Made by a program: the position numbers and the translations under genes
Notes under the pieces: generated by a model
Seen by the model: only the letters and a program-made list of their open reading frames with translations
Databases searched by the model: none
What the model was told of the DNA's origin: nothing
Source: an uncultured Ruminococcus sp.
GTDB lineage: Bacteria > Bacillota > Clostridia > Oscillospirales > Ruminococcaceae
DNA length: 55,742 nucleotides
NCBI GenBank assembly: GCA_902780695.1
Contig: CACZGM010000037.1
Span: 1 to 55,742, forward strand
Direction: 5' to 3'
Shown here: piece after piece, positions 21,377-38,943 of the stretch
Layout: every line of letters begins with the position of its first letter
How positions within the stretch are numbered: position 1 is the first letter of the stretch

Positions 21377-22660
21377 TTACTTTAACGCCGCAAAACCCTT
21401 TTCAAGGTCGGCAATTATATCGTCGATATGCTCAGTGCCGATCGAAAGACGTATCGTGCTCTGCGATATGCCCTGATCTGCAAGCTCCTCATCGGTGAGC
21501 TGACTGTGAGTTGTCGTAGCCGGGTGGATAACAAGCGACTTGACATCGGCAACATTTGCAAGAAGCGAGAATATTTCGAGATTGTCGATAAACTTGTGCG
21601 CTTCTGCCTGACCTCCCTTAATATCAAAGGTAAAGATGCTGCCTCCGCCGTTCGGGAAGTATTTCTGATAAAGAGCGTGATCCGGGTGATCCGGAAGCGA
21701 CGGGTGATTTACTTTCGCAACAAGCGGGTGCTTGGAAAGATAATCTACAACCTTTTTGGTATTCTCAGCGTGACGTTCAAGACGCAGTGAGAGTGTTTCG
21801 GTTCCCTGTAAGAGAAGGAACGCGGCAAACGGAGATATAGCAGCGCCTTCGTCACGGAGCAGTATAGCTCTGATGTATGTAACAAATGCCGCAGGACCTA
21901 CAGCGTCGGCGAAGGAAATACCGTGATAGCTCGGGTTGGGAGCGGCTATAGGAGCATACTTTCCGCTTGCCTTCCAGTCAAATTTACCGGAATCAACGAT
22001 CACACCGCCGAGAGTTGTTCCATGACCGCCAATGAACTTGGTTGCAGAATGTACGACAATATCAGCGCCGTGCTCTATAGGACGGATAAGGTAAGGCGTG
22101 CCGAATGTATTGTCTATAACAAGCGGGAGACCGTGCTTATGCGCTATCCCGGCTATTGCGTCTATATCCGGTATATCACTGTTCGGATTTCCGAGGGTTT
22201 CAAGATATATAGCCTTTGTGTTGTCCTGTATAGCATTTTCAACTTCCGCAAGGTCATGCGCGTTAACAAATGTTGTCTTTATGCCGTACTGCGGGAGCGT
22301 ATGTGCAAGCAGATTGTAGGAACCGCCGTAGATCGTTTTCTGTGCAACGATATGCTCACCGGCATTGGCAAGCGCCTGGATCGTGTATGTGATAGCGGCC
22401 GCTCCGGAAGCTACCGCAAGTGCGGCTACACCGCCTTCGAGAGCGGCAATTCTCTTTTCAAACACGTCCTGTGTCGAATTTGTAAGTCTGCCGTAGATAT
22501 TGCCTGCGTCTGCAAGTCCGAATCGTGCCGCTGCGTGTGCTGAATTCTTGAATACATACGATGTAGTCGCGTAGATCGGTACTGCTCTTGCATCCGAAGC
22601 GGGATCGGGCTGTTCCTGACCAACATGAAGCTGTAATGTTTCGAATTTATAGTTTGACAT
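21377..22660 (-). CDS. metY: O-acetylhomoserine sulfhydrylase (aminocarboxypropyltransferase)
   Basis: The 427-residue protein belongs to the Cys/Met metabolism PLP family. It starts KFETLQLHVGQEQPDP and shows VPIYATTSYVF, NIYGRLTNSTQDVFE, the cofactor-stacking YGGSYNL, and VVHSATKFIGGHGTT with the Schiff-base lysine. The N-terminal signature and the length above 420 favour MetY over MetB/MetC. It converts O-acetylhomoserine and sulfide to homocysteine, in the cytoplasm. AAAGGAAG precedes the ATG. The 190-base leader carries a short Cys-ending leader peptide and alternative stems, described separately, which suggests regulation by cysteine supply. Confidence 0.93.
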   Translation of the reverse strand: MSNYKFETLQLHVGQEQPDPASDARAVPIYATTSYVFKNSAHAAARFGLADAGNIYGRLTNSTQDVFEKRIAALEGGVAALAVASGAAAITYTIQALANAGEHIVAQKTIYGGSYNLLAHTLPQYGIKTTFVNAHDLAEVENAIQDNTKAIYLETLGNPNSDIPDIDAIAGIAHKHGLPLVIDNTFGTPYLIRPIEHGADIVVHSATKFIGGHGTTLGGVIVDSGKFDWKASGKYAPIAAPNPSYHGISFADAVGPAAFVTYIRAILLRDEGAAISPFAAFLLLQGTETLSLRLERHAENTKKVVDYLSKHPLVAKVNHPSLPDHPDHALYQKYFPNGGGSIFTFDIKGGQAEAHKFIDNLEIFSLLANVADVKSLVIHPATTTHSQLTDEELADQGISQSTIRLSIGTEHIDDIIADLEKGFAALK

Positions 22661-22683
22661 AATAGTTACTTCCTTTCATAATG

Positions 22684-22754
22684 CGGCTTTATGCCGAAAT
22701 GTTGATGTTAATGGTTTTGTTCGCGTATTGTTTGTATCTGTTTCAACATCGGCA
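22684..22754 (-). promoter_or_regulatory. Attenuator-like alternative RNA stems in the metY leader
   Basis: On the transcript TGCCGATGTTGA (22754-22743) can pair with TCAACATTTCGGCA (22705-22692), giving 5 + 7 base pairs around a TT bulge. The first arm is exactly the last codons of the leader peptide, Cys-Arg-Cys-stop. The second arm overlaps a competing hairpin CGGC-ATAAA-GCCG (22696-22684) next to the metY ribosome site. No T-run follows, so control would be at translation. Confidence 0.65.
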
Positions 22755-22808
22755 CATTCGCCCGAACCGGAAGTTTGCTCTTACAAGATCTTCAAATACG
22801 TTCCGCAT
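22743..22808 (-). CDS. Leader peptide of metY, 21 residues, ending Cys-Arg-Cys
   Basis: A short frame starts with ATG at 22808 behind a strong AAAAGGAG ribosome site and about 40 bases after the promoter -10. The peptide begins MRNVFEDL and ends FRFGRMCRC before TGA. Ribosome-site quality, promoter position and the two Cys codons immediately before the stop in front of a sulfur-assimilation gene fit a regulatory leader peptide. The Cys codons and stop form one arm of a 12-bp stem with downstream leader RNA. Confidence 0.7.
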   Translation of the reverse strand: MRNVFEDLVRANFRFGRMCRC

Positions 22809-22848
22809 ATTGTCTCCTTTTCTTATCTGTTTAGTAGGTTATGTGCGT

Positions 22849-22877
22849 ATTATATCACACTTTTCATATCTTGTCAA
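22849..22877 (-). promoter_or_regulatory. Consensus promoter of the metY leader
   Basis: On the minus strand: TTGACA (22877-22872), 17 bases, TATAAT (22854-22849). Both hexamers are perfect consensus. Confidence 0.85.
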
Positions 22878-22906
22878 TAGGTTTTAGAAAAAAATTTAAA
22901 ATTTTT

Positions 22907-23641
22907 TTAATCCTGCTGATCGGCAGAACATAAAGTACCTGTATTATTTTCAGAGGTATCCCTTTGTTTCTTCTCGGTTTTGGCGAACGAAGCAGCATAT
23001 ACTTTGCCCGCACCGGCTTCTTTCAAAACTTTTGCTGCAGATGCAAGAGTGCTTCCGGTAGTGCATACATCGTCTATCAGCAATATCCTCTTCCCTTTTA
23101 TATCGCCCGCTTTCGAAGACACAGCAAACACATCCTCTGTATTTGCCTTTCGTTCTGCTACACCTTTTAAACTCTTCTGTTCACTAGTGTCTTTGACTTT
23201 TATCAACACTTTATTATACGGTATTTCCATAAGGAAACGAAGCTCCTTTGCGATAAGCTCGGTCTGATTGTACCCGCGCTCCGACATTTTGGCATCGGTT
23301 ATAGGGATAGGCACAATTATATCAAAATCACCGCAGAACACGCTTTCCTTAACCGCGGTATCTATTCCGCACGCAAATGCGTAGTATGTGTTCCCGCAGT
23401 CATTCTTCTTGAATTCAAGTACAGCAGGACGTATAAAGTCATCGTAAACACAAAAAGCTGCAAACCCGTTTGTGTAAGAAACAGCGGAACTGCCGGTATA
23501 ACGTGTGATGCTGCTCTTACAGCTTTCACAGAAATCGGCATCATGCGCTATATGTTTATTGCAGCACGGACAAATATTCGGATATAGCCAATCTATCAGA
23601 TATCTGTATATTCTGTGCAGTTTTGATCTGTTCATCTTCAT
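22907..23641 (-). CDS. ComF-family phosphoribosyltransferase-like protein
   Basis: The protein of about 244 residues has an N-terminal zinc-binding cluster (CPCCNKHIAHDADFCESC) and a C-terminal phosphoribosyltransferase-type domain with LLIDDVCTTGST as the PRPP loop; PIPITDAKMSERGYNQTE is also typical. ComF proteins take part in DNA uptake and genome maintenance in competent bacteria; no other competence gene is in the window. The frame is open back to an ATG at 23722 inside ilvC, but neither start has a good ribosome site. The start used here (MKMNRSK) places the zinc cluster at the usual distance from the N-terminus. It follows ilvC in the same direction, and a GC-rich hairpin (GCGGCGG/CCGCCGC, about 23650-23680) lies between. 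Confidence 0.8.
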   Translation of the reverse strand: MKMNRSKLHRIYRYLIDWLYPNICPCCNKHIAHDADFCESCKSSITRYTGSSAVSYTNGFAAFCVYDDFIRPAVLEFKKNDCGNTYYAFACGIDTAVKESVFCGDFDIIVPIPITDAKMSERGYNQTELIAKELRFLMEIPYNKVLIKVKDTSEQKSLKGVAERKANTEDVFAVSSKAGDIKGKRILLIDDVCTTGSTLASAAKVLKEAGAGKVYAASFAKTEKKQRDTSENNTGTLCSADQQD

Positions 23642-38840: not shown

Positions 38841-38943
38841 TACAGCGAGATGCGAAAACCGCACCGCAAGCGCTTCTGCGCTTTTCGTCGCAGTGCCAAC
38901 TCTCCGTTCACTGCGCACTTAACGCGCGGTTTTCTACTCTGTA
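38841..38943 (-). ncRNA. Tetrahydrofolate (THF) riboswitch
   Basis: The transcript matches the THF riboswitch in order: P1 TACAG/CTGTA (38943-38939 with 38845-38841), AGAGTAGA, CGCGTTAAGTG, a hairpin CGCAGTG...CACTGCG with TGAACGG in its loop, ACGAA, AAGCGC-AGAA-GCGCTT, GCGGTG, then CGCATCTCGCTGT. A GAAAACCGC/GCGGTTTTC helix closes the junction. It lies between pfkA and the folate transporter gene, in the transporter orientation, with no terminator before it, so it may be reached by readthrough from pfkA or by a promoter inside the pfkA 3' end. Confidence 0.92.

Follow-up and report, generated by a model that had tools for sequence, protein, structure and literature searches.

A leader frame with its own promoter precedes metY

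The window, that is, the whole stretch of DNA that was analysed (55,742 nucleotides from an uncultured Ruminococcus sp.), carries on its minus strand a metY gene preceded by a promoter and a short open frame. The features discussed below are, in the direction of transcription:

22849 to 22877, minus strand: promoter, TTGACA and TATAAT separated by a 17-nt spacer that ends in TG (12 of 12 consensus matches)
22814 to 22820, minus strand: putative leader ribosome site AAAGGAG, recognised by sequence just 5' of the leader frame
22743 to 22808, minus strand: leader frame MRNVFEDLVRANFRFGRMCRC and stop, ATG to TGA, 21 codons, member of a conserved family
22755 to 22775, minus strand: core codons AAC TTC CGG TTC GGG CGA ATG (N F R F G R M)
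22764 to 22774, minus strand: predicted anti-Shine-Dalgarno arm, ACTTCC (22774-22769) and TTC (22766-22764), from the pairing analyses
22755 to 22760, minus strand: CGA-ATG codon pair, where a ribosome is proposed to stall (P site on CGA, A site on AUG)
22746 to 22754, minus strand: tail codons TGC CGA TGT (Cys Arg Cys), with CGA again before a Cys codon
22743 to 22754, minus strand: first arm of a previously proposed stem, TGCCGATGTTGA, in the predicted fold, unconserved
22692 to 22705, minus strand: second arm of that stem, TCAACATTTCGGCA, in the predicted fold, unconserved
22668 to 22677, minus strand: metY ribosome site GAAAGGAAGT, predicted partner of the anti-Shine-Dalgarno arm
21377 to 22660, minus strand: metY, O-acetylhomoserine sulfhydrylase (TIGR01326), by model match

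The MetY protein matched TIGR01326 (O-acetylhomoserine aminocarboxypropyltransferase) at 627.6 bits, above the cut-off of 495.1, and its gene starts 82 nt 3' of the end of the leader frame. The leader frame starts 41 nt beyond the -10 hexamer (transcription start placed from the promoter). A preliminary description of this DNA had reported a consensus promoter, a 21-codon frame with a strong ribosome site and a Cys-Arg-Cys end, and no T-run after it. The promoter and the frame were found as reported, and a scan of the minus strand from 22400 to 23100 returned no terminator-like site. Elsewhere in the genome, five places resemble the promoter region at 77-86% (over about the first 50 nt of 22900-22848, the stretch queried), and one of them (C8:34716-34768) lies directly upstream of tRNA-Met and tRNA-Glu genes; this resemblance suggests a strong stable-RNA-type promoter under post-transcriptional control. 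Own-genome matches of the metY upstream region were rejected as further copies of the leader, as they were promoter-like only.

MetY of the window has no Cys and no internal Met, and each of the other 39 long frames of the window has at least 3.1% Met plus Cys. Both residues (Met internally) are likewise missing from 37 of 75 full-length MetY proteins, the window's included. Such a composition fits an enzyme that is needed when both amino acids are scarce.

SAM riboswitches and T-boxes of Bacillota often control methionine genes. Neither was found at gathering score in the window or in the 40 of 80 named metY loci that were scanned with Rfam (20 without the exact leader motif, six of them with diverged leaders, and 20 with the motif or with NFRNGRM), and a known riboswitch or T-box was accordingly rejected as the control of metY for the window and these 40 loci. 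The leader itself matched no model of Rfam, Pfam or NCBIfam (four peptides each for Pfam and NCBIfam). Far from metY, at 38841-38943 of the window on the minus strand, a tetrahydrofolate (THF) riboswitch scored 92 bits against a gathering score of 36.

The leader is a member of a family upstream of sulfur-amino-acid genes

The metY upstream region gave some match in 22 of 71 genomes of the genus (own included) and a full-length match in 10 of the 70 others, each with a leader of the form ..R.NFRFGRM and a short tail. Conservation of the short frame, on which the preliminary description had made its proposal depend, thus held both in these 10 genomes and beyond the genus, and by this measure the frame is far more than a chance one. 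By comparison across genomes, it is a member of a conserved leader-peptide family with the core F..L.R.N[FY]RFGRM.

Among the 80 named metY loci, the exact motif lay at most 350 nt upstream in 21. A core profile, applied to 500 nt upstream at E up to 1e-3, matched at 31, namely the 21 that had helped to build it and 10 diverged loci outside the building set; it gave no match on the opposite strand of the same upstream stretches or of the metY genes. Two further leaders, L010 and L011 (NFRNGRMCRCC), were found by motif and not by profile; with these counted as having a leader, 47 of the 80 loci had none. Seven metY loci of the same genus (L099-L104 and L106) showed no recognisable leader within 400 nt upstream (159 nt for L100). 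The leader is therefore not obligatory for metY, even within the genus.

We scanned genomes at three taxonomic levels with a DNA pattern of the core. The family scan found it in 38 of 396 genomes, three of which hold only Ser-variant hits that were later dropped, and the reversed control pattern gave 3 hits. The order scan found it in 32 of 295 genomes from 11 families, with no control hit. At the level of the phylum, 4 of 398 genomes (one being the window's own) compared with 2 control hits, i.e., no signal outside the order. Since the order scan was positive and the phylum scan gave no signal, the family seems to be characteristic of the order to which the window belongs. Six sites were dropped: L111, L113, and L114, foreign hits of the phylum scan with no sulfur gene seen after them, and L118, L135, and L152 of the family scan, which have Ser in place of one core Arg and were taken as chance. 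The resulting pool comprises 100 non-redundant exact-motif sites.

In this pool, 83 leaders lie upstream of metY (80 located by script; L122, L130, and L161 by eye). Another 15 precede NlpA/MetQ-type lipoproteins, 14 of which match Pfam PF03180; the fifteenth (L139) is cut by a contig end and has a leader nearly identical to that of L138. Six lipoproteins scanned against NCBIfam matched its MetQ models below their cut-offs. The remaining two leaders (L182 and L183) precede an ABC permease (PF00528). The best NCBIfam matches of the L182 permease include taurine and sulfonate permeases, all below cut-off, and a small frame between the L182 leader and the permease, scanned at this locus, matches DUF2292. 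By these matches, the leader-linked genes are for making methionine, for a lipoprotein of the methionine type and, probably, for importing sulfonates. Two metY loci are irregular. At L136, the start of metY seems to run into unrelated sequence soon after the leader (by eye), which may be a truncated gene or an assembly fault. At L161, the leader is intact and the metY behind it meets a stop in frame immediately after the start codon, which would be either a pseudogene or a sequencing error.

The peptide core is conserved, and a CGA codon precedes Met

The residues N, [FY], R, [FY], G, R, and M, together with the ATG codon of Met, were set by the search pattern; that these amino acids never vary in the pool reflects site selection. 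Positions free of the pattern were conserved as well: F(-7) in 90, L(-4) in 94, and R(-2) in 99 of the 100 leaders. R(-2) is encoded by AGA 47, CGG 20, CGC 14, AGG 9, CGT 5, and CGA 4 times, and the codons of L(-4) vary likewise. The first core Arg used all six codons within the first 68 sites. Synonymous codons also replace one another at Asn, Phe, Gly, and the two other Arg positions, with the amino acids constant, the Arg codon before Met being the exception. Because amino acids hold while synonymous codons vary, selection appears to act on the peptide. This is the pattern expected of an arrest peptide, and at F(-7), L(-4), and R(-2) it is independent of the search pattern.

The second core Arg, directly before Met, is encoded by CGA in 99 of 100 leaders. 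The pattern allowed CGN here in the order scan, where all 34 sites had CGA, and all six Arg codons in the phylum and family scans. As background, the genes downstream use CGA for 25 of 1071 Arg codons and the long frames of the window for 33 of 781 (about 2-4%). Fifteen diverged leaders outside the pool (two found by motif and thirteen listed by the profile, three of them, L029, L073, and L078, weakly at E 0.015 to 0.27) have CGA 12 times, CGC twice, and CTC once at this position, followed by Met in 14 and by Val (GTG) in L077. The tails repeat the arrangement: a Met or Cys codon follows CGA in 34 of 38 cases and other Arg codons in 2 of 41. Given this recurrence in core and tails, CGA seems to be placed directly before Met and Cys codons and not simply to encode Arg.

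The tRNA-Arg genes of the window's genome have the anticodons ACG, CCG, TCT, and CCT; TCG was not among the 39 tRNA genes found (assembly 96.78% complete), which probably leaves the inosine tRNA as the sole reader of CGA. With an I:A pair in the P site, decoding of the next codon is slowed. A his-leader assay found CGA slow, and CGA within Arg pairs gave strong de-attenuation (PMC4046918).

After GRM, 67 of the 100 leaders have at least one Cys, 25 stop immediately, and 8 have a tail that lacks Cys. Cys accounts for 122 of 514 tail residues (23.7%), compared with 1.9% in the long frames of the window. The terminal Cys codons, which the preliminary description had taken as the sensor, are thus enriched but not universal, and we rejected them as an invariant sensor: Cys is missing after GRM from 33 of 100 leaders, of which 25 end in Met-stop. 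With regard to a run of codons for the pathway amino acid, as in his and trp leaders, the picture is mixed: Cys is frequent in the tails and absent from those 33 leaders, and there is usually a single Met after the start codon. What stands of a Cys-codon leader controlling metY is a translated leader with sulfur-amino-acid codons at its end.

Core codons covary with the metY ribosome site

The preliminary description had the end of the leader pair with a segment 37 bases downstream. This pairing exists: TGCCGATGTTGA and TCAACATTTCGGCA, which lie 37 nt apart, form 12 bp interrupted by a 2-nt bulge, and the stem appears in the predicted fold. The stability of that fold is unexceptional (z -1.14, 28 of 200 shuffles at least as stable; second fold z -0.91, 40 of 200). 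In an alignment of 11 sequences of the genus, only 59.6% of cells were paired, and 178 of 500 shuffles did as well. The covariation check thus went against the 12-bp stem, which was rejected as a conserved switch: it is unconserved even within the genus.

Another helix in the same alignment, between leader ACTTCC..TTC and metY GAA.GGAAGT, was 99.0% paired. Seven of its nine pairs are invariant, and one pair is changed on both sides in 4 sequences (C-G to U-A). Only 3 of 500 shuffles matched it in paired percentage, doubly changed cells, and covariation score; measures that count pairs or pair types were not outstanding (446 of 500 and 500 of 500 shuffles). Outside the alignment, we compared the NFRFG codons of 56 metY loci with their own or a swapped ribosome-site region. 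Own partners paired better (-8.14 versus -6.90 kcal/mol; 0 of 5000 permutations), and a sliding-window profile of pairing peaked at the motif, which held the best window in 30 of the 56 loci. The signal came from loci with Phe and CGN, both outside the genus (26 loci, 0 of 5000) and within it (11 loci, 16 of 5000). No locus-specific signal was seen in 19 Tyr/AGR loci (2170 of 5000) or in 10 metQ-type loci (941 of 5000; for L134, among these ten, scoring used an upstream start that may be incorrect). Hence, the anti-Shine-Dalgarno helix is not universal. For Phe-CGN loci, the window's class, the leader can pair with the Shine-Dalgarno sequence and covaries with it, as in a translational attenuator, and we suggest that the switch helix is formed by the leader codons AAY TTC CGN TTC acting as an anti-Shine-Dalgarno sequence.

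Of the metY loci that combine Phe (TTC) with CGN, 55 in all, 35 have a GGAAG or GGAAA site and 20 a different ribosome site. The third base of the Asn codon tracks the site: AAC goes with GGAAG 10 times and with GGAAA twice, AAT with GGAAA 23 times and never with GGAAG (Fisher p 3.6e-7), and seven other leader positions showed no such association (p 0.26 to 1). When corrected for descent on a MetY tree of 76 proteins, 4 of 6 supported independent pairs were concordant and none opposite (p 0.125), a number of pairs with which significance is out of reach. A second compensatory pair, Tyr/Phe with GGTA/GGAA, was considered and rejected: among loci having either site, GGTA is present in 5 of the 6 with Tyr and in 7 of the 44 with Phe, and this comes down to 3 independent pairs, which is not significant.

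We then masked a ribosome footprint in the predicted folds, the size of the footprint being the conventional one, for 72 of 80 metY rows (terminator loci and odd spacings were left out). With CGA in the P site, mean predicted openness of the ribosome site rose from 0.27 to 0.60 in 52 Phe-CGN loci (47 up); a mask of the same size placed upstream gave 0.28 and a ribosome at the stop codon 0.49. For the window, the values were 0.19 unmasked, 0.75 with the CGA-stalled ribosome, 0.19 with the upstream mask, and 0.38 with the ribosome at the stop. L088 and L094 of the genus showed little rise. In the 20 other loci, openness rose less, from 0.43 to 0.57 (15 up), much the same as with the stop-codon mask (0.59). 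Control in the window probably acts on metY translation.

A minority of loci carry a terminator-like hairpin

A terminator-like hairpin with a T-run lies downstream of 8 of 113 leaders (the 100 of the pool and thirteen from the profile list). Seven of these are at metY, and the one of L182 lies beyond the small second frame. By eye, L029 is an eighth metY locus of this layout. At all eight metY loci, the leader sequence immediately 3' of GRM is able to pair with the terminator's 5' arm, and these antiterminator pairings were stronger with the own than with a swapped partner (mean -32.7 versus -27.1 kcal/mol over 8 loci; 26 of 20000), although the own partner was the single best in 3 of 8 loci only (L044, L028, and L016). 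The pairing of L029 is understated, as its anchor fell on an earlier copy. L044 (2789-3000), from a complete Faecalibacterium genome, combines terminator and antiterminator with a leader that ends ..CCARMCTRM, in which all three RM pairs are CGA ATG. In the window, no terminator and antiterminator of the his/trp kind lie between leader and gene.

A peptide-assisted attenuator is the favoured reading

We propose, at a probability of roughly 0.6, that the metY region is a ribosome-controlled, nascent-peptide-assisted attenuator that responds to the supply of Met and Cys, with both signal and direction inferred. By comparison, this is a conserved leader upstream of sulfur-amino-acid genes whose last conserved codons are CGA-AUG, and its Asn-Phe-Arg-Phe codons can pair, with covariation, with the metY ribosome site. 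When Met-tRNA, and Cys-tRNA for the codons just after, are plentiful, ribosomes would finish the leader and leave; the vacated mRNA would then fold back and hide the metY ribosome site. When sulfur amino acids are short, a ribosome would pause with its P site on CGA and its A site on AUG or the following Cys codon, where it would cover the 15 nt that hold the anti-Shine-Dalgarno sequence and allow metY to be translated. The nascent peptide F..L.R.NFRFGR and the inefficiently decoded CGA probably prolong the pause; we propose that, for this reason, one or two regulatory codons may suffice. A minority of relatives would place the same leader before a transcription terminator and antiterminator instead. 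The preliminary description was right about the kind of element, a translated leader, and missed the peptide core, the fixed CGA, and the wider gene set.

Several points count against this attenuator. The leader is absent from 47 of the 80 named metY loci and from seven loci of the genus, the tree-corrected pairs do not reach significance, 20 of 55 Phe-CGN loci have another ribosome site, and Tyr/AGR and metQ-type loci lack the helix signal. One Met codon is a weak sensor unless helped. Met and Cys could serve the peptide itself and not report tRNA charging. At the terminator loci, the footprint of a ribosome on CGA-AUG would just reach the beginning of the antiterminator arm, and control there may run in either direction. 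A more specific version is tentative, with the odds slightly against it: a codon-pair-gated, nascent-peptide-assisted attenuator in which a poorly decoded, inosine-read CGA in the P site has been selected before the sensed Met or Cys codon and behind a conserved stalling peptide, so that a single codon would report tRNA charging, and in which the leader cassette has been coupled to sequestration or termination across an order of gut anaerobes.

The strongest rival is one that we consider unlikely. The peptide F..L.R.NFRFGRM might itself bind Met, SAM, Cys, or homocysteine in the tunnel and halt translation, much as TnaC arrests the ribosome with tryptophan, with tRNA charging irrelevant. Strong amino-acid conservation over varying synonymous codons is what such a small-molecule arrest peptide would show, and the 25 of 100 leaders that stop right after Met resemble arrest at termination. 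However, the fixed CGA and the enrichment of Cys after Met would need an extra reason, and with the anti-Shine-Dalgarno layout an arrest would switch metY on when the product is plentiful.

The reading of the preliminary description, with a ribosome stall at the terminal Cys codons that keeps the TGCCGATGTTGA/TCAACATTTCGGCA stem from forming, fares worse, and we regard it as improbable. The stem is in the window's predicted fold, and Cys is frequent in the tails (23.7% of residues; at least one in 67 of 100 leaders), but the stem is not kept in the genus, 25 of 100 leaders end in Met-stop with 8 more having no Cys after GRM, and the peptide core and CGA go unexplained. That the conserved stretch is an RNA element (a protein or sRNA site) with an incidental frame is very improbable: in its favour, it is the nucleotides of CGA that are fixed, and the tails again have CGA ahead of TG, but Asn, Phe, Gly, and both other Arg codons vary synonymously under constant amino acids, no general downstream complement of CGAATG was seen (by eye; ATTCG in a few loci), and the open frame through the core is kept at 100 sites.

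If the peptide-assisted attenuator is right, it would be a Met/Cys control system for a large group of uncultured and cultured gut Clostridia, serving loci at which neither a SAM riboswitch nor a T-box came up in the Rfam scan. The constant CGA ahead of the sensed codon would amount to a natural experiment that asks if wobble strain at a P-site codon can adjust how sensitive the ribosome is to the supply of the A-site tRNA. One peptide with two output modules, ribosome site and terminator, would show how attenuators are rebuilt around a constant sensor.

Comparison with known systems

No description of the leader was found in the literature searched (preprints and most subscription papers lay outside its scope), and four letter strings of the motif were absent from the same literature. 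Unlike many methionine genes of Bacillota, the loci scanned here have no SAM riboswitch or T-box at gathering score. A 2010 survey of premature terminators describes regular leader peptides in Bacillota for hisS (PMC2965389). As in his and trp attenuators, a short translated leader bears regulatory codons, and the position of the ribosome would select the fold of the mRNA. The present leader differs in its long conserved core of non-regulatory peptide and probably in having, as a rule, no run of regulatory codons; where his and trp attenuators use a terminator, it would mostly sequester a ribosome site through its own codons.

The closest described system that we met is the polycysteine attenuator of mycobacteria, in which, according to PMC9031893 (citing Canestrari 2020), a leaderless frame with contiguous Cys codons is proposed to sense cysteine. 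Cys codons and a short upstream frame are shared with that account. In contrast, the family described here is not leaderless, has no contiguous Cys run as a rule, contains a conserved Met codon, and differs in peptide and phylum; the frame in the window has its own ribosome site and reads CRC, not CC.

SecM, TnaC, and ErmCL are regulatory arrest peptides. With these, the leader shares a conserved nascent peptide under synonymous variation, a short leader, and, as proposed, control of a downstream ribosome site or terminator. It differs from them in its motif and in the fixed CGA beside Met and Cys codons, and arrest is, in its case, a prediction.
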